Assembly: GCF_040054535.1 (NCBI RefSeq)
Contig: NC_090796.1
Location: forward strand, 14,349,501 to 14,413,500
From: Antennarius striatus
Lineage: Eukaryota; Chordata; Actinopteri; Lophiiformes; Antennariidae
DNA: 64,000 nucleotides
Direction: 5' to 3'
This document shows, piece after piece, positions 47,253 through 59,445 of the stretch. The position numbers were made by a program, and so were the translations under genes. The notes under the pieces were generated by a model. It saw nothing but the letters and a program-made list of their open reading frames with translations, searched no databases and had not been told where the DNA came from. Each line of letters opens with the position of its first letter. Within the stretch, counting starts at the first letter, position 1.

Positions 47253-47558
47253 TTAAAGGGGCCCTATTATGAAAATCACACTTTTTCAGGTCTCTACATA
47301 TACATAGTGGTCCTCCATAACCCAACCAACTCCTAGAATCTGGTAAACAAACACTTCCTGCATCAATAGATATTTGGACTTTTAGGAAGTCATGGCTCTG
47401 AACGACTCGATTGCCAGAATAGGCATTGTTGACGTCAGACTTTGCACTCTGCTATTGGACAGAGTATTGGACGATATGGATTGGTGGACACGCCCAAGGG
47501 CGTGGCCATCCCCGAGACGGAGCTCTTCGTGTCAGACGTTAGGCAGCAGTCTGTTGAC

Positions 47559-47786
47559 ATGGCGTCTGTGACAAGGAAACAAGGTAGTTGCTCAGTTGTT
47601 GATTGTACAAATCAACACCAGTGTTTATTTTTCATCCCATCCAATGAAGAACAGAAGAGACCGTGGTTACATTTCATTTTTAATGGCTCTGTGCAGCTAC
47701 ATCGCCTGCACGTTTGTTTGTGTGTGAACCACTTCACTCCAGCCTGTTTTAGCAATGAGGGTCAGTCCAGACGGGGCTTTGCCTGA
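47559..47786 (+). CDS. THAP zinc-finger exon of transposon copy 1
   Basis: From ATG 47559 the frame reads MASVTRKQGSCSVVDCTN and is open for 75 codons. The THAP pattern is C11-x4-C16, W36, then C55-x2-H58-F59 (CVNHF) and C63-F64. THAP fingers are DNA-binding modules found in P-element, Kolobok and related transposases and in host THAP proteins. It sits near the left end of the element, where a transposase N-terminus belongs. This copy keeps all four zinc ligands, unlike copy 2. The frame stops soon after the finger, so without splicing it encodes little more than the finger. Confidence 0.7.
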   Translation: MASVTRKQGSCSVVDCTNQHQCLFFIPSNEEQKRPWLHFIFNGSVQLHRLHVCLCVNHFTPACFSNEGQSRRGFA

Positions 47787-47992
47787 GACTGATCCTCATT
47801 CAAGGATCACTCCCAACCATAGGGACCAAGGACCTGCACCCTGGACCAAGGACCTAGGACCTGCACCCTGGTTACAGGCTAGTCTCACCACATTTATCTT
47901 TTTAGCAGTTGTCTGTTAGCATGAGTGATCGAGTGCTATTTGGCTAATTAGGTGGTGCTGCTTTGTTTCGTGTTAGCGTGTGTGTGCGCTCC

Positions 47993-48112
47993 AACGTGTG
48001 TGTGCTGAACCTACAGTACCTACTGTAGGCACAACGTGTGTGTGCTGAACCTACAGTATCTACTGTAGGTACAACGTGTGTGTGCTGAACCTACAGTACC
48101 TACTGTAGGTAC
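47993..48112. repeat. Three 40-bp minisatellite units with internal palindrome
   Basis: Three nearly perfect tandem units begin AACGTGTGTGTGCTGAACCT. Each contains CCTACAGTA, two spacer bases and TACTGTAGG, a 9-bp inverted repeat. The same array is present in copy 2 at 55176-55295. Confidence 0.95.
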
Positions 48113-48384
48113 AACGCACCAGAGTTGGGCTCACATTTTATCATTTTTCTGTTTGTCGGTTAGCATGAATGAAGTCATGCTATGCTAGGCTATGTAGGGA
48201 GGTCTCCTTCGTTTTGCGTGTTGCGTGTGTTCGTACGCTCCAACACGTGTGTGCGTGCTGGACCTACAGTATAAAACTAAAACGCACGTAAGTTGGTTCA
48301 TATTTTCTTATTGTTTGTTAGCCTGAATGAAGTCATGTTATGCTAGGCTATGTAGGGAGGTCTCCTTTGTTTCCAGTTTGCGTG

Positions 48385-48453
<69 letters not shown>
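48385..48453. repeat. (GT)n microsatellite within copy 1
   Basis: About 34 GT units. The corresponding run in copy 2 (about 55410-55442) is about half as long. Confidence 0.93.
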
Positions 48454-48454
<1 letters not shown>

Positions 48455-48734
48455 CTGCACTCCCACACGTGCTGGACCTACAGTATAAAGCTAAAACACA
48501 CAGTAAGTTGGTCTCATATTTTCTTTTCTATTATCTGTCAGCATAAATAAAGTCAACTTATGCTAGGCTAAGTAGGGAGTTGTGCTTTGTTTCGTATTGT
48601 GTGTGCGCGCACGTGTTAGAGTCGATTGTTTGTTGGTCGTCATAGCGACAACTCACACAAGTCTGTCCTTCTTATACAAAATCAGAACATTGGTGTCCTG
48701 AAATCAGTGTCCCTCTTCCTTGTGCATCCTTTCA

Positions 48735-48841
48735 GCCTACAGCTTCAAGGGACGTGTGGGGCCAAACTGACCCAGTGGACACCCATACTGGTGGTACACA
48801 GCTGTCCTGCAGGACTCTTCATTCCCACTATTGAAGTAAAG
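48735..48841 (+). pseudogene. Internal exon of the transposon's plus gene, copy 1
   Basis: Bounded by an acceptor-like TTTCAG and a good donor (GTAAAG then GTATGT). One frame reads 32 codons including TQLSCRTLHSHY before an in-frame TGA that is also present in copy 2. It resembles linker segments of THAP-bearing fish transposases as I recall them, but I cannot confirm this. Confidence 0.35.
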
Positions 48842-49388
48842 GTATGTACAAGTCATATTCCATACAATGTTTTAATAAAATTGGTTAACTACGCTAATTT
48901 TCTGAATATACTGTAGTTGTCTGTAGGTGTTAGTGAATGCACATGTGTTGATAGTAGTTCAGAAAAAAATAAGAGTGTTGTGTATTAGAATTTTCCAGCA
49001 AGACAGTAAGTGAAGACTTTAGTATAAAAATTTCTGAGACAGATTCATGTATGTCATATATTGTTTTGGCTCCTTATTTCGTTACGTTTGGTGTACCCCT
49101 CTATAAGATCCACTTTCCAAAGGCTTTTGAAGGGACAATGCAGAGTCAAACCTCACGAGACAGAGCCAACATTCTGTTAGTGTTGTAATATTTTAATATT
49201 TCAAACAAACCTTGTTTGAAATTCTGTTGGTAATTGTTCGCAACAAAACACAGTAAAAAGTAACCATACAAATAAATAAATCAGTAGCAAGTACCAGGAT
49301 GTATTTTGAACACAATTTTTCTAAACTGAGAAATGAATCAAACAATATCAATAACAGTAGAGATCTATCTTTGTGTTTTATTGAACAG

Positions 49389-49567
49389 GTTTTGTAGCTG
49401 ACATGTTGGACCTCATATGTGACAAAGACTTGGTGGACCCTGTGCCATACACAAATGAGATGTTGTCCATTCCTCTCCCCGAGAATCTGTCTGCCCAGTG
49501 TGAGCGTCCGGACAAGGTGGAGGTCATTGCCAGCTACATGACCAGGTTCAACCAAGACTCTGTCTAA
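49389..49567 (+). pseudogene. C-terminal exon of the transposon's plus gene, copy 1
   Basis: After the acceptor TTGAACAG the exon reads VADMLDLICDKDLVDPV, then SIPLPENLSAQ and ends in SYMTRFNQDSV followed by TAA. The same exon in copy 2 is 56377-56554. An extra T at its start relative to copy 2 shifts the junction frame. The product looks like the tail of a transposase whose middle is missing in both copies. Confidence 0.5.
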
Positions 49568-50913
49568 ATCCAGCGTAGTGGCCTTTGTCTTCAGGACCAC
49601 ACATGCTGGGATGACAACCCGGATTCTGCACCCTAAGTAGCCCCAGCACCAGCCAACAAAGGTGCGATAGGCCAGATGTCTGCACCATCTACAGAAAAAG
49701 GACACAAAACTACTTATTTCACAATGTTTTCAATCCTGAGTATTACAACTGTTGTTGATTTCCTGACAGGATGGCCCTGTGGTCTCATTATTGTTATTGG
49801 ATGTATTGTTTTATGTAAATAAATGCTTGTATATGTCGACATAAATGGATTGTGAATACCAAAAAATGTTCAACATGTCTTTTAATAAGATAAAAATCAA
49901 GGTGTCGCAAATACAATATATTAGACTGTTGTACCTATACTGTATATGTCATGTTACTGCATTAATGAAGGAATGCCTAATGAAGCAAAATAAGACAACT
50001 AGTTTTTATTACGACATTTTTCAAAGAACGACTTACCGATGTATTTGTCTCAGACATGAAGGGCCATACTCGGCCCTCAGTACGTGACCGGCCGTTTGTA
50101 GGGTGTACACGTTTAGGCACACAGTCATGCACGGAACTTCATCAACCTCCTGCAGACGGCTCCTAACCTACAGTGAAAAAACATGGTAAAGGTCATTTGA
50201 ATTTACAATTGTAAAAGTAGTCGAATACCGTAGAGACATAACTTTGTGGTTTAGCTGTGAGCTTGCTACTTGTGTGTCTCCAAACAGATGTTTTCTGCTT
50301 CTGTTGGCTCACATTCAGTGTCCACAGGAACACCTGTACAACAGGTGAAGACACCTCAAAATAGAGTATATAAAAGCATCACTGCAATATGGTTACATCA
50401 TTTCACCATTAACCTGGTGTGATGGTAGCAGGTGTTAGCTCCGTGTGTCTTGTCACAGAGGACTGCATCAAATATCGTGCAGCTTAGTAACGGGTTAAAT
50501 CAATGTGATGGAAAAATAAAGTAACTTAGCCGTGAGCAGAAGCTAGCATTAGCCACATGGTAATAACTATCAGAACCACCATCAGACTTTACCGTCACTT
50601 ATAGAAATACAGCAACATTTTAGCAGTCAACACATCCGTACATATACAAAATACATAAGACATTTGACATTATTACTGTGATGAGAGGCGGGAGTAGAAG
50701 CTAAAGTAGCTACCGGACGATGCTAACGTCCTGTGATGCCGTAGGTTACACAACAACACAACACAGAACCAACTAAGTAGCGTTCACACGTACTAACCAT
50801 TCAGAAACGTCCTGCTGCAGCCGCACAGTCGGTGTTTCTTTAGGAGCCCCCGCTACTGGGTCCCACTCAGGGTCATAAATGTACGCCGACACGATGGGTC
50901 CTCCAAACGCCAT
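49548..50913 (-). pseudogene. P2X7-ballast-like gene in transposon copy 1, disrupted
   Basis: Minus-strand exons are 50798-50913 (MAFGGPIVSAYIYDPEWDPV start), 50270-50333 (WCSCGH), 50037-50167 (LQEVDEVPCMT, VCLNVYTLQTAGHVLRAEYG) and about 49548-49688 (WCRHLAYRTFVGWCWGYLG, RIRVVIPACVVL). The cysteine pattern and the tyrosine/tryptophan-rich segment match the cytoplasmic C-terminal ballast domain of P2X7. Relative to copy 2, exon 3 lacks 21 bp in frame and exon 4 lacks 22 bp, which shifts the frame after VVL. Exon 2 also has an in-frame TGA after the GH. It begins near the right end of the element and converges on the plus-strand gene. Confidence 0.7.
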
Positions 50914-51500
50914 AATGATAACAAACGTAACGCCGGTCAGTGTCCCGTTAGCCTAACGCTCTACTTCAGAGGGGCGTGGCCCAGGTGAAGGAGGCGTGGG
51001 CCAGAGGAGCTCATTAACATACTGCAGCCGGAGGCCTGAAACGAAGCGTTTTGTGAGTAGCTCAGATAAGTTGTTTGAAAAGCTGATATTTAGGACCACA
51101 GATCACTTTAGGTCAAAATATTTGGAATACAGTCTAGTTGGACATCTGGCAGCTGAATGACATTAAGTTAAAAATACATAATATGGGACCTTTAACACTT
51201 TTATACTAAGAATTAGACTTTGACACTTTAGTTTTCCCACTGTAAAAGCTTATAGCCGATTCCTGTTCTTGGACACAATTTCCTCATCTTTGGAGACCCC
51301 CCTCCCCCCCCTCACAGGGCACAGAGGACGCTGGTGTTGCAGGTGATTTGTGAGGAGGGAACAAGTTCGGATAGGAGCTTCTGGGATCTAAACATTTTAA
51401 CGATCAAACAGAACTATATGGTAAAATGAAACGTGACCAGGGTCGCGCCCGAGGCGAATTTATTTTTCCCAAACCAATCGCCAAGTGATAAGTACCTCAG

Positions 51501-53705: not shown

Positions 53706-54767
53706 AATTCACTATTACGTGTCATACATGTTTTTCTTCTGTGATGTTGCATCTTTTGATGAAATGTTCATATGATCATTAAAAGACACGTAAACGGTTG
53801 GTTCAAATGCAGACGGCCCCTGGATGCTACAGATGTTTTTCGTCGTAGCGCTTTCTCCATTATCTCGTCTGCCGCGTACGACTGTGATGCTGATACAGAT
53901 ACTCAAATACTAGAATTCATTCATTCTTATTACTCTTACTCGAATACATTTCCAAGGTAAAGATTTATACTCTTACTCGAGTTAATTTCTGAGAAGGCTC
54001 ATGAATACTCCTTACTTTTAGGTTTGCTTGTTTTTTTTGCCCCCACCCCTGTAAAATGCAATTGGCCACACGGAGTGTAGTCAATTTTCCCCACATATTT
54101 ATGACCACATTGACTATTTGTTGATTTTTCAGTGATTCAGTTGACAAAAGTTAATTTTTCAGTCTCTTAAATCTTTTTTTGGCTCAACATGAAGCATCAT
54201 TAAATTCCAACCTATAATCATCATTTGAGGTCATTTAAATGTCATTACTACTCTAAATACTAAGGTTTTATTCCCTAAGACTCACCAGAAAGTTACAGGA
54301 CATAAAAAACAATACATCCACTAAAGTTTTCCATCGCATTGACGTGATGACGCACTGACGTCACTTCCTGGTCATTACAAGTACGGCACGCCCATTTATG
54401 CTTGATTATTCCGTTTTATTTCATAAAGTTTCTCTTAAAGGGGCCCTATTATGAAAATCACACTTTTTCCAGGTCTCTACATATACATAGTGGTCCTCCC
54501 TAACCCGACCAACTCCTAGAATCTGGTAAACAAACACTTCCTGCATCAATAGATATTTGGACTTTTAGGAAGTCATGGCTCTGAACGACTCCATTGCTAG
54601 AATAGGCATTCCTGACGTCACACTTTGCACTCTGCTATTGGACAGAGTATTGGACGATATGGATTGGTGGACATGCTCAGGGGCGTGGACGATATAGATT
54701 GGTGGACACGCCCAACGGCGTGGTCATCCCCAAAACGGAGTTCTTCGTGTCGGACAGAGGTGTTGAA

Positions 54768-54962
54768 ATGGCGTCTGTGACAAGGAGACAAGGTAGTGGC
54801 TCAGTTGTTGATTGTACAAATCAACACCAGTGTTTATTTTTCATCCCATCCAATGTAGAACAGAAGAGACCGTGGTTACATTTCATTTTTAATGGCTCTG
54901 TGCAGCTACATCGCCTGCACGTTTGTTTGTTGGTGGAACCACTTCACTCCAGCCTGTTTTAG
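54768..54962 (+). pseudogene. THAP zinc-finger exon of copy 2, broken
   Basis: The frame begins MASVTRRQGSGSVVDCTN, so the first zinc-binding cysteine is glycine. Near the end, a small indel replaces the CVNHF motif with a shifted LLVEPLHSS reading. With two ligand sites lost, the finger cannot fold normally. Copy 1 keeps both. Confidence 0.75.
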
Positions 54963-55175
54963 CAATGAGGGTCAGTCCAGACGGGGCTTTGCCTGAGACT
55001 GATCCTCATTCAAGGATCACTCCCAACCATAGGGACCAAGGACCTGCACCCCGGTTACAGGCTAGTCTCACCACATTTATCTTTTTAGCAGTTGTCTGTT
55101 AGCATGAGTGATCGAGTGCTATTTGGCTAATTAGGTGGTGCTGCTTTGTTTCGTGTTAGCGTGTGTGTGCGCTCC

Positions 55176-55295
55176 AACGTGTGTGTGCTGAACCTACAGT
55201 ACCTACTGTAGGCACAACGTGTGTGTGCTGAACCTACAGTATCTACTGTAGGTACAACGTGTGTGTGCTAAACCTACAGTACCTACTGTAGGTAC
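55176..55295. repeat. Three 40-bp palindromic minisatellite units, copy 2
   Basis: Same unit and copy number as 47993-48112, with single-base differences. Confidence 0.95.
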
Positions 55296-55408
55296 AAGCA
55301 CCAGAGTTGGGCTCACATTTTATCATTTTTCTGTTTGTCGATTAGCATGAATGAAGTCATGCTATGCTAGGCTATGTAGGGAGGTCTCCTTTGTTTGGCG
55401 TTTGCGTG

Positions 55409-55409
<1 letters not shown>

Positions 55410-55442
<33 letters not shown>
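55410..55442. repeat. (GT)n microsatellite within copy 2
   Basis: About 16 GT units; the homologous run in copy 1 is about twice as long. Confidence 0.9.
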
Positions 55443-55444
<2 letters not shown>

Positions 55445-56376
55445 CTGCACTCCCACACGTGCCGGACCTACAGTATAAAGCTAAAACACACAGTAAGTTG
55501 GTCTCATATTTTCTTTTCTATTATCTGTCAGCATAACTAAAGTCAACTTATGCTAGGCTACGGACGGAGTAGTGCTTTGTTTCGTATTGTGTGTGTGCGC
55601 GCACGTGTTAGTCGACTGTTTGTTGGTCGTCATAGCGACAACACACACAGGTCTGTCCTTCTTATACAAAATCAGAACATTGGTGTCCTGAAATCAGTGT
55701 CCCTCTTCCTTGTGCATCCTTTCAGCCTACAGCTTCAAGGGACGTGGGGGGCCAAACTGACCCAGTGGACACCCATACTGGTGGTACACAGCTGTCCTGC
55801 AGGACTCTTCATTCCCACTATTGAAGTAAAGGTATGTACAAGTCATATTCCATACAATGTTTTAATAAAATTGGTTACACTAATTTTCTAAATATAGTTG
55901 TCTACAGGTGTTAGTGAATGCACATGTGTTGATAGTAGTTCAGTAAAAAATAAAGAGTGTTGTGTTTTAGAATTTTCCAGCAAGACAGTAAGTGAAGACT
56001 TTAGTATAAAAATTTTTGAGACAGATTCATGTATGTCATATATTGTTTTGGCTCCTTATTTCGTTACGTTTGGTGTACCCCTCTACAAGATCCACTTTTC
56101 CAAAGGCTTTTGAAGGGACAATGCGACAATGAGTCAAACCTCACAAGAAAGGGCCAACTTTCTGTTAGTGTTGCAATATTTTAATATTTCAAACAAAAAT
56201 GTTTTGAAATTCTGTTGGTAATTGTTTGCACCAAAACACAGTGAAAAGTAACCATACAAATAAATAAATTAGTAGCAAGTACCAGGATGTATTTTGAACA
56301 CAATTTTTCTAAACAAAGAAATGAATCAAAAAATATCAGTAACAGTAAAGATCTATCTTTGTGTTTTATTGAACAG

Positions 56377-56554
56377 GTTTGTAGCTGACATGTTGGACCT
56401 CATATGTGACAAAGACTTGGTGGACCCCGTGACATACACAAATGAGATGTTGTCCATTCCTCTCCCCGAGAATCTGTCTGCCCAGTATGAGTGTCCTGAC
56501 AAGGAGGAGGTCATTGCCAGCTACATGACCAGGTTCAACCAAGACTCGGTCTAA
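56377..56554 (+). pseudogene. C-terminal exon of the transposon's plus gene, copy 2
   Basis: After the acceptor TTGAACAG the exon encodes VADMLDLICDKDLVDPV, SIPLPENLSAQYECPDKEEV and ends SYMTRFNQDSV before TAA at 56552-56554. The exon itself is open and better preserved than in copy 1. Its last 20 bp overlap the end of the minus-strand P2X7-like coding sequence. Confidence 0.55.
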
Positions 56555-58288
56555 ATCCAGCGTAGTGGCCTTTGTCTTCAGGAAACTCCTGGCGTATGTG
56601 AAGGACCACACAGGTTGGAATGATGACCCGGATTCTGCGTCCTAAGTAGCCCCAGCACCAGCCAACAAAGGTGCAATAGGCCAGATGTCTGCACCATCTA
56701 CAGAAAAAGGACACAAAACTATTTATTTCACAATGTTTTCAATCCTGAGTATTACAACTGTTGTTGATTTCCTGACAGGATGGCTCTGTGTTCTCATTAT
56801 TATTATAGGATGTATTGTTTTATGTAAATAAATGCTTGTATATGTCAACATAAATGGATTGTGAATAACAAAAAATGTTCAACATGTCTTTTAATAAGAT
56901 AAAAATAAAGGTATCTCAAATACAATATATTAGATTTTGTTGTACCTATACTGTATATGTCATGTTACTGCATTAATGAATGCCTTTTCCTTTCGGCTTT
57001 TCCCTTCAGGGGTCGCCACAGCGAATCAATTTCCTCCATCTAGCCCTGTCCTTTGAATCCTCTTCTCTCACACCAACTACCTTCATGTCTTCCCTCATTA
57101 CATCCATAAACCTCCTCCTTGGTCTTCCTCTAGGCCTCCTGCCTGGCAGTTCAAAACTCAGCATCCTTCAACCAATATATTCACTATCTCTCCTCTGGAC
57201 ATGTCCAAACCATCTCAGTCTGGCCTCTCTGACTTTATCTCCAAAGCCTCTAACATGTGCTGTCCCTCTGATGTACTCATTCCTGATCTTATCCATCCTG
57301 GTCACTCCCAGAGAGAACCTCATAATGAAGGAATGCCTAATGAAGCAAAATAAGACTAGTTTTTATTCCGATATTTTTCAAAGAACGACTTACTGATGTA
57401 TTGGTCTCAGACATGAAGGGCCACACTCGGCCCTCAGTACGTGACCGGACCTTTGTAGGGTGTACACGTTTAGGCACACAGGCTGGAACCCAGGATGTTG
57501 AGTCATGCACGGAACTTCATCAACCTCCTGCAGACGGCTCCTAACCTACAGTCAAAAACATGGTAAAGGTCATTTGAATTTACAATTGTAAAAGTAGCCG
57601 AATACCGTAGAGACATAACTTTGTGGTTTAGCTGTGAGCTTGCTACTTGTATCTCCAAACAGCAGTTGTCTTCTGCTTCTGTTGACATACGTTCAGTGTC
57701 CACAGGAACACCTGTACAACAGGTGAAGACACCTCAAAATAGAGTATATAAAGGCATCACTGCAATATGGTTACATCATTTCACCATTAACCTGGTGTGA
57801 TGGTAGCAGGTGTTAGCTCCGTGTGTCTTGTCACAGAGGACTGCCTCAAATATTTAGCAGCTTAGTAACGGGTTAAATCAATGTGATGGAAAAATAAAGT
57901 AACTTAGCCGTGAGCAGAAGCTAGCATTAGCCACATGGTAATAACTATCAGAACCACCATCAGACTTTACCGTCACTTATAGAAATACAGCAACTTTTTA
58001 GCAGTCAACACATCTGTACATATACAAAACACATAATAAGACATGTGACATTATTACTGTGATGAGAGGCGGGAGTAGAAGCTAAAGTAGCTACCGGACG
58101 ATGCTAACGTCCTGTGATGCCGTAGGTTACACAACAAAACAACACAGAACCAACTAAGTAACGTTCACACGTACTAACCATTCAGAAACATCCTGCTGCA
58201 GCCGCACAGTCGGTGTTTCTTTAGGAGCTTCTGGGTCCGACTCAGGGTCATAAATGTACGCCGACACGATGGGTCCTCCAAACGCCAT
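56535..58288 (-). pseudogene. P2X7-ballast-like gene in transposon copy 2
   Basis: Minus-strand exons are 58179-58288, 57647-57711, 57394-57545 and 56535-56697, with GT/AG borders. The product starts MAFGGPIVSAYIYDPESDP, then WCSCGH, then LQEVDEVPCMTQHPGFQPVC, then WCRHLAYCTFVGWCWGYLG, IPTCVVLHIRQEFPE and HYAGFRPSLG before TGA. The WCxCG start, the paired cysteines, CMTQHPGF and the AYxxFVxWCWGxLG to IRxxFP block are diagnostic of the zinc- and lipid-associated cytoplasmic ballast domain of P2X7; no channel part is present. Exon 2 is 65 nt where phase requires 64 or 67, so the frame is broken there; exons 3 and 4 are otherwise intact. A LINE fragment sits in the last intron. The gene's 5' end lies near the element's right end. 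Confidence 0.75.
56981..57322 (-). mobile_element. 5'-truncated non-LTR retrotransposon fragment
   Basis: A 342-bp segment absent from copy 1 is bracketed by TAATGAA (56974-56980 and 57323-57329), a 7-bp target duplication. On the minus strand it encodes DKIRNEYIRGTAHV, VREARLRWFGHVQRRDSEYI, then LPGRRPRGRPRRRFMDV and DRARWRKLIRCGDP, the conserved C-terminal tail of a reverse transcriptase of the RTE-like type common in fish. An in-frame TGA follows SEYIG, consistent with CpG decay of an arginine codon. Its 3' end is at the left, so it inserted in the same sense as the P2X7-like gene. Confidence 0.8.
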
Positions 58289-59445
58289 AATGCTAACAAA
58301 CGTAACGCCGGTCAGTGTCCCGTTAGCCTAACGCTCTACGTCAGAGGGGCGTGGCCCAGGTGAAAGAGGCGTGGACCAGCGGAGCTCATTAACATACTGC
58401 AGCCGGAGGCCTGAAACGAAGCGTTTTGTGAGTAGCTCAGATGAGCGATTTTGAAAAGCTGATATTTAGGACCACAGATCACTTTAGGTCAAAATATTTG
58501 GAATACAGTCTAGTTGGACATCTGGCAGCTGAATGAGTTAAAAATAAATAATATGGGACCTTTAAGTAGACCAATAGTTCACATCAGCTAGGAAAACATT
58601 CAGAGTTCAGCGTTAGTTCATGCTTCCGGGTAGAAACCAAACCCGAAAACCTTGGTTCCACGTGTACAGTGGGACAACCTGACAATATAAAAACAGGTAA
58701 ATACAAAAAAAAAATACAGGCAGATTTCGTTTCGACTTAGGTCGTTCGCAATTAAAATAAAAAAGTACGGAAAAAAAAATAATTTTTGAGTCTTTTCACC
58801 CGACTTAACGTCTGTTCACCACAAACACTGAATTCTTACGATCACTCTTGTTTCACTTCAGATCGTTTAAATTTTTCGCCTTTTACTAAAGATTTCCGTG
58901 GAGTGGAACAGCAAGAGTTTTTTTTTAACAATCACTAAAAAACGAATACTGTATCCAAGGTAGGACGCCTGACGCACTGATGCTGATAAACGTCGTGCTG
59001 ATAAAGTGATGCACAGAGACAACAACAAACAAAAAGAGGTCGAGAGGAATGCCGGAGCTGCGTAAACGTAGCGGTGCTGCCCCCCTCGGAGGTTGTGGCA
59101 AAAAGTGGAACTGCAGGACAATAGTCGGATAAGGCCGAGCGCGTTGTTCGAATCACCGAATGTTCCTAAACCGAATGTTGATAAATTGAGCACTACCTGA
59201 ATATTTATTTTTTTTAAAAACTTGAAATGGATAACATTTAATTTTTCAGAGCAATGAGGAAGAGCTCATTAGGCTTTTTTTTTTAGGTGGATCCTCGCTG
59301 AGATGTAGATCCATCATGTTTGTTCTGCACAGCTTCACTCCTTTCTAATTTGGGAATAGACAAAGTGACGGGCTTCCTTCGTGAAAAGATCCAAGGTTCA
59401 ATAGATCTTTATCAGAGTTAGAGAGTTAGAGAGATTTCCTCTGGC

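Follow-up and report, generated by a model that had tools for sequence, protein, structure and literature searches.

A probable nonautonomous Kolobok transposon with a decaying P2X7-ballast-like gene in Antennarius striatus

A stretch of 64,000 nucleotides from the fish Antennarius striatus (assembly GCF_040054535.1, contig NC_090796.1, positions 14,349,501 to 14,413,500; called the window below) contains a segment between two TTAA sites. In this segment, the remains of a THAP transposase gene face a gene on the opposite strand that resembles the cytoplasmic ballast domain of P2X7. The locus raises the question of whether a mobile element carries a ballast-domain protein without a channel, as a first-pass annotation had proposed, and what such a gene tells about the P2X7 domain. 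Our analysis indicates that the segment is very probably a nonautonomous, internally deleted Kolobok transposon of the Kol0 lineage, and a member of a fossil family in which the ballast-like gene, KolX, is decaying. The concept is already in print. The new part is the state of the element, with loss of its DDE core and broken THAP and KolX frames.

Kol0 Kolobok elements encoding a transposase and KolX were described by Kojima and Bao in 2022 (PMC9587614). In that source, KolX matches the P2X7 cytoplasmic ballast, P2X7 is traced to a P2X4-like gene fused to KolX, Kolobok elements follow the rule of a TTAA target and 5'-RR...YY-3' ends, and nanor is suggested to be a domesticated KolX. Ballast-only proteins in animals were reported by Rump et al. 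in 2020 (PMC7016195), where R546-H547 and R574-R578-K583 form a guanine-nucleotide site in rat P2X7; the main text of that source has no terms beginning with "transpos". Frog Kolobok transposases with THAP and DDE parts are described in PMC6004289. In the literature searched, the name KolX appeared in PMC9587614 only.

The boundaries of the element were verified by comparison with other copies. The left boundary reads TTAA/AGGGGCCCTATTATG (54435) and the right boundary reads ATAATATGGGACCT/TTAA (58565); in inward reading, the right end is TTAA/AGGTCCCATATTAT. The same right end was found in 7 other genome copies (L010, L014, L016, L021, L023, L038, and L040), followed by different flanking DNA. 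Similarly, the same left end was found in two copies (L016 and L040), each then continuing into unrelated DNA, and a further left end was located in L081 by BLAST. The common terminal bases together with the unrelated flanks indicate that these boundaries are those of a transposed unit, in agreement with the annotated TTAA-bounded element. A 4-bp TTAA target site is present at both ends of the window copy, of a second complete copy in the window, and of L016, and at further single ends. The element ends are AG...CT, which agrees with the Kolobok 5'-RR and YY-3' rule.

The minus-strand gene was placed as four exons by splice-site consensus plus homology, with predicted splice sites (Table 1). 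The motifs WCSCGH, CMTQHPGFQPVC, WCWGYLG, and IRQEFPE are all found on the minus strand within these exons. Exon 4 by itself matched the Pfam profile PF20478 (P2RX7_C) with E=2e-10 and 41.3 bits (cut-off 23.5), and it matched the C-terminus of solved P2X7 structures, residues 545-592, with E=1.1e-5. In the alignment with the P2X7 chain, exon 4 shares R546, H547, C572, and R578 but not C573, R574, and K583. Exon 2 of the window copy carries a frameshift; the predicted protein ends after WCSCGH, and the cysteine pattern is interrupted there. In copy L015, all four exons are open as they stand. The spliced L015 KolX matched P2RX7_C with E=6.1e-16 and P2X7 chains with E=2.3e-9 over residues 470-592, and in its alignment most of the cysteine pattern is present (WCxCGxC, CC, and later cysteines), although C573, which completes the late pair, is missing. 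Besides P2RX7_C, Pfam shows no catalytic family in KolX, and no P2X channel family was found among the nine frames scanned with Pfam. At the sequence level, these profile matches settle the homology, and the gene is a P2X7-ballast relative, here termed KolX. The ballast identity proposed before is verified by these matches; the annotated four-exon gene has its exons and motifs in place but is not intact in the window, with a frameshift and a stop in exon 2.

The plus strand contains the remains of the transposase. An open version of the THAP exon lies in L081:378-827 and matches PF05485 THAP with E=1.1e-8, over the cut-off. L081 is identical to the element at 88% (element positions 1-771), 80% (825-1107), 89% (1101-1478), and 87% (1474-1637). 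The window exon is accordingly a putative THAP exon, named after this open homologue, which is 88% identical over positions 1-771 and matches the Pfam family. Past element position 1637, L081 continues with three stretches whose protein is 88-96% identical to frames in L050. In L050, the C-terminal transposase exon comes after the DDE-region frames, and the opposite strand contains KolX exons 4 and 3. L081 thus keeps the left part of the element plus the DDE-region frames, and L050 keeps the DDE-region frames plus the right part including KolX. Since the DDE frames of both loci fall at the element junction 1637/1638, the window element is an internally deleted derivative. The DDD/E catalytic core is absent from the window copy and is present in L081 and L050 by homology only; because of this absence, the window copy is classed as a nonautonomous derivative and not as an autonomous element. 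An apparent Gypsy-like long terminal repeat (LTR) retroelement directly adjoins the DDE part in L050, at the place expected for the THAP half.

A piggyBac-type element was considered for the same locus, given the use of TTAA and the KolX-like protein reported in some piggyBac elements. The TTAA target site fits such an element, but the AG...CT ends are those of the Kolobok rule in PMC9587614, and in L081, DDE-region frames come after a THAP domain. Moreover, the piggyBac versions are described as lacking most of the seven cysteines (PMC9587614), and L015 KolX keeps WCxCGxC, CC, and later cysteines. A piggyBac origin is therefore very unlikely, and a Kolobok derivative is preferred.

The two genes converge within one unit. 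In the window copy, the coding ends of the transposase and KolX overlap by 20 bp (56535-56554). Both window copies contain remnants of both genes within the same TTAA ends, as expected from the first-pass annotation, where the two genes had been placed jointly inside the terminal sites. Neither of the two outcomes that would have contradicted this annotation, a lack of a significant profile match or genes not jointly bounded, was observed. L016, in which both ends are seen, has KolX exons 1, 2, and 4 together with the C-terminal transposase exon, without the THAP part. Genome-wide, 28 distinct DDE-like places were collected with two element families pooled. Among the matches listed, 7 of the 28 lie within 10 kb of a PF20478 match, each time in a tail-to-tail pair.

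Table 1 Features of the element and related loci (positions are those of the window unless a contig or locus label is given).
Feature	Position	Strand	Basis or remark
TTAA-bounded element	54435..58565		Imperfect inverted ends; same terminal bases recur in other copies
Left end: TTAA target site and terminal repeat AGGGGCCCTATTATG	54435..54453		Same left end in L016 and L040; L081 by BLAST
Right end: terminal repeat and TTAA	58548..58565		7 other copies with same end, unrelated flanks
THAP exon remnant of Kolobok transposase, broken frame	54768..54962	+	Identity via L081 homologue
Second transposase exon remnant (...TASRDVGGQTDPVDTH...)	55726..55831	+	Splice sites by consensus only; homologous frame L081:1677-1862
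Junction without DDE core	56071..56072 (element position 1637/1638)		L081 homology stops at 1637; L050 homology begins at 1638
Transposase C-terminal exon (...FVADMLDLICDKDLVDP...)	56377..56554	+	L050 has an open homologue beside its DDE-region frames
KolX exon 4 (WCRHLAY...WCWGYLG...IRQEFPE...), open to stop	56535..56697	-	PF20478 profile match
KolX exon 3 (...PCMTQHPGFQPVCLNVYTLQ...)	57394..57545	-	Splice consensus and homology
KolX exon 2 (WCSCGH, then stop; broken frame)	57647..57711	-	Splice consensus and homology
KolX exon 1 (MAFGGPIVSAYIYDPESDPE...)	58179..58288	-	Splice consensus and homology
Minisatellite of about 40 bp inside element	55175..55297		Overlapping BLAST matches at element positions 741-863
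Non-LTR retrotransposon 3' fragment, 339 bp, nested in KolX intron 3	56984..57322	-	Foreign to element
Second complete element copy	47253..51195	+ (same orientation)	TTAA at both ends; without retrotransposon fragment
Genome's own P2X7, ballast in one exon	L009, C3:8739040-8742465		
Tail-to-tail DDE/PF20478 pairs	C8:9.24 Mb, C13:12.20 Mb, C2:6.17 Mb, C1:6.23 Mb, C9:0.17 Mb, C7:0.14 Mb, C17:6.41 Mb		

The element belongs to a large family of copies without a DDE core. The PF20478 profile search of the genome scored 150 of 185 candidates, and its counts are lower bounds; at least 146 matches were found, two of which are at the P2X7 gene. A sample of copies was taken from 29 loci of this search (L010-L038) and 30 loci of a search with intron DNA (L051-L080). 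After removal of the window's own L051 and six loci that duplicate a place, the sample contains 52 distinct places besides the window copy. All 29 loci L010-L038 match the window element; they had been picked by exon 4 score, which favors copies with a conserved exon 4. An unbroken DDE-less junction was seen in 45 loci, equal to 40 of the 52 distinct other places. Within sampled loci that extend only about 1.5 kb from the match, DDE traces were found in 2 of 53 copies, the C-terminal transposase exon in 51 of 53, and a THAP-exon match in 5 of the 52 other copies. A query with the DDE region of L050 returned 24 rows from 15 distinct places at 40-100% identity, which indicates more than one family. 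The PF20478 places (at least 146) thus far outnumber the DDE-region places (15 distinct) in the genome. The eight best THAP loci, L001-L008, were tried as relatives of the element and rejected, as none has an element-specific match; L001 matches the element only in its simple-repeat part and L005 only in the retrotransposon fragment. Similarly, THAP locus L039 was rejected, with no DNA match to the element.

The KolX gene is broken in most copies. Exon 2 can be aligned in 44 of 53 copies, the window copy included. Exon 2 stays in frame through two bases, which are missing from 35 of the 53 copies and present in 6; the remaining 12 gave no call. Among the 31 copies with all four exons, 28 are broken and three read open (L015, L017, and L068), and the full cysteine pattern is present in L015 only. 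Exon 4 variation was analyzed in 46 distinct gap-free sequences, collapsed from 59 loci by removal of duplicates. Of the singleton changes, 15 were silent, 33 were replacements, and 2 were stops, where neutrality predicts fractions of about.28,.68, and.04; on these sequences, the changes private to single copies fit the neutral expectation. In 16 copies, the divergence was 0.057 in exon 4 and 0.034 in intron 3, in a set recruited by intron likeness. A group of 15 copies including both window copies is without the two exon 2 bases throughout; the support of this group is 0.63, which is weak. These results bear on another explanation, in which the nonautonomous family retains a functional KolX under selection; the short copies might, for instance, supply a repressor or helper. 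The 28 copies without read-through, the widespread loss of the exon 2 frame bases, the neutral singletons, and an exon 4 more divergent than intron 3 all argue against selection of this kind.

Several observations point the other way and weigh against the reading of a decayed Kolobok derivative. For KolX, exon 4 is open in most copies examined, three four-exon copies read open, and one of these keeps the full cysteine motif. The exon 4 variants common to several copies lean silent, with 17 silent and 23 replacement, and the overall ratio of replacement to silent variation (pN/pS) is 0.46; older, active lineages may have been under constraint in exon 4, as judged from these variants. Tested for descent from one master copy, loss of the exon 2 bases required 5 changes on a 41-copy tree with noisy flanks (shuffled mean 5.75) and 4 changes on 29 cleaner copies (shuffled 3.84). 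A single clean origin of the lesion was not seen on the 29-copy tree, where the changes were no fewer than shuffled. For the transposase, the window THAP-like exon (54768-54962) gave no Pfam match at E<=10, and the sister copy in L040 gave a THAP match below threshold only, E=0.028. The THAP exon of the first-pass annotation is supported through its L081 homologue, but its own frame in the window is broken and has no Pfam match itself. The assignment of the L050 and L081 frames to the DDE core came from similarity to a frame in L041, at 32% identity and E=8.4e-4. The L041 frame has Pfam matches to Mutator-type transposases and others, all below the cut-off, and Pfam gave nothing meaningful for the first DDE piece of L081. 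Motifs that we take to be those of the Kolobok DDE core were a further basis for the assignment. The L081 and L050 frames are accordingly called a candidate Kolobok DDE region with a putative catalytic core. For 21 of the 28 DDE-like places, the matches listed include no PF20478 neighbor within 10 kb, and the genome searches found no single complete autonomous copy. With both sides considered, a selected KolX in the short copies is quite unlikely, and the internally deleted Kolobok element with a decaying KolX remains strongly favored.

A second, diverged element family also carries a PF20478 gene, at L041 (C9:170500-176500), L042 (C7:143700-149700), and L043 (C23:8967200-8973200). In L041 and L042, a DDE-like frame stands tail-to-tail with the diverged ballast gene, and in L041 and L043, at least the last two parts of KolX lie in one frame. 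In addition, nine DDE-like matches of the second family lie within about 170 kb at C4:1884432-2051991 in strictly alternating orientation, five of which are covered by L045-L049. The frames of this array are 267-500 amino acids long, two of them with an internal stop, and there is no PF20478 among the matches listed there. The array is possibly an amplified or domesticated one.

The two families also bear on the opposite direction of transfer, in which the element recently picked up exons of host P2X7 or nanor. The significant similarity to P2X7 is what such a capture would leave, but the ballast of the genome's own P2X7 is in one exon and KolX is in four. Furthermore, the tail-to-tail layout recurs in a distinct second family (L041 and L042) with a diverged ballast gene of its own, and KolX occurs in the Kol0 elements of many animals (PMC9587614). 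A recent pick-up from the host is therefore extremely improbable, and descent of KolX within the Kolobok lineage is preferred. From the difference between the one-exon P2X7 ballast and the four-exon KolX, any capture by P2X7 would have started from a KolX with few introns or from a spliced copy, or would have been followed by a loss of introns.

Among known systems, the window family resembles Kol0 of the Kolobok-1_XT type (PMC9587614) in the TTAA sites, the RR...YY ends, the DDD/E transposase of intact members, and a separate KolX with the ballast fold. It differs from Kol0 in having no DDE core and in KolX being broken in 28 of the 31 four-exon copies. The likeness to the P2X7 ballast (PF20478) includes most of the WCxCGxC...CC...C...C pattern in L015, the RH pair (546-547, chain 9e3m), and the IRxEFP motif; in contrast to P2X7, KolX has no channel and four exons, and the window exon does not keep C573, R574, and K583. 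The Xenopus Kolobok XKol (PMC6004289) has a similar THAP plus DDE transposase and TTAA sites, whereas neither KolX nor P2X7 is mentioned in the main text of that source. Zebrafish nanor (PMC7016195) is similar in its ballast domain, short N-terminal part, and lack of a channel, but nanor was reported as a set of host genes, whereas the window copy is a pseudogene carried by a repeat.

The second complete copy lies 3.2 kb upstream of the copy at 54435-58565, and the two are sisters in the copy tree with a support of 0.88. By sequence, this sister placement is what a local hop would give. The copy number of the minisatellite of about 40 bp (55175..55297) differs among element copies. The retrotransposon fragment (56984-57322) has an 8-bp flanking repeat, GAATGCCT, and is matched at unrelated places in L005 (96%) and L040 (95%). 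Among the 52 other element copies, only L013 has a match to it, with a different junction there. L040 contains a longer relative of this fragment with a reverse-transcriptase-like frame.

A mechanism for the family may be proposed. The ancestral element would have had two converging genes, one for a THAP-DDE transposase and, entering from the other end on the opposite strand, a short one for KolX. In an intact element, as judged from the family, the transposase would bind the ends via THAP and cut and paste at TTAA. KolX in intact elements would act in trans, perhaps as a dispensable helper or regulator of transposition; for a zinc-stabilized helper or regulator acting in trans, we see about an even chance among the possible roles. 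After loss of the DDE core, the element would have been mobile only with transposase from other copies. The DDE-less element would then have spread, with 52 other copies examined and about 140 similar exon matches in the genome, while the THAP and KolX frames decayed. Many copies are without an intact KolX; a need for KolX in cis is therefore unlikely, and supply from other copies is still allowed.

These data give independent support, in one genome, for the connection of Kolobok KolX to the P2X7 tail that is already in the literature. A mobile Kolobok relative does carry the ballast gene as annotated, but as a broken gene in an element with its catalytic core lost; the bearing on the origin of the P2X7 domain was already published (PMC9587614). 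On the suggested bearing on ballast function without a channel, the window copy has little to tell, since the changes in single copies look neutral. Two additions are made to the published link: the transposase and KolX are tail-to-tail in 7 of 7 neighboring pairs, and copies commonly lack an intact KolX, suggesting that the element can do without KolX in cis. The 32 other PF20478 loci examined (29 of the window type and 3 of the second family) are all repeat-borne or apparently so. In such genomes, a Pfam P2RX7_C match is not by itself evidence of a receptor gene; here only 2 of at least 146 are at P2X7. It is conceivable, though improbable, that a few copies such as L015 still make KolX, in trans aiding or restraining the spread of copies without transposase and KolX, and that the dispersed ballast exons form a standing domain source for capture by host genes. 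If true, dispersed ballast exons as a source of the domain would fit the proposal for the origin of P2X7.

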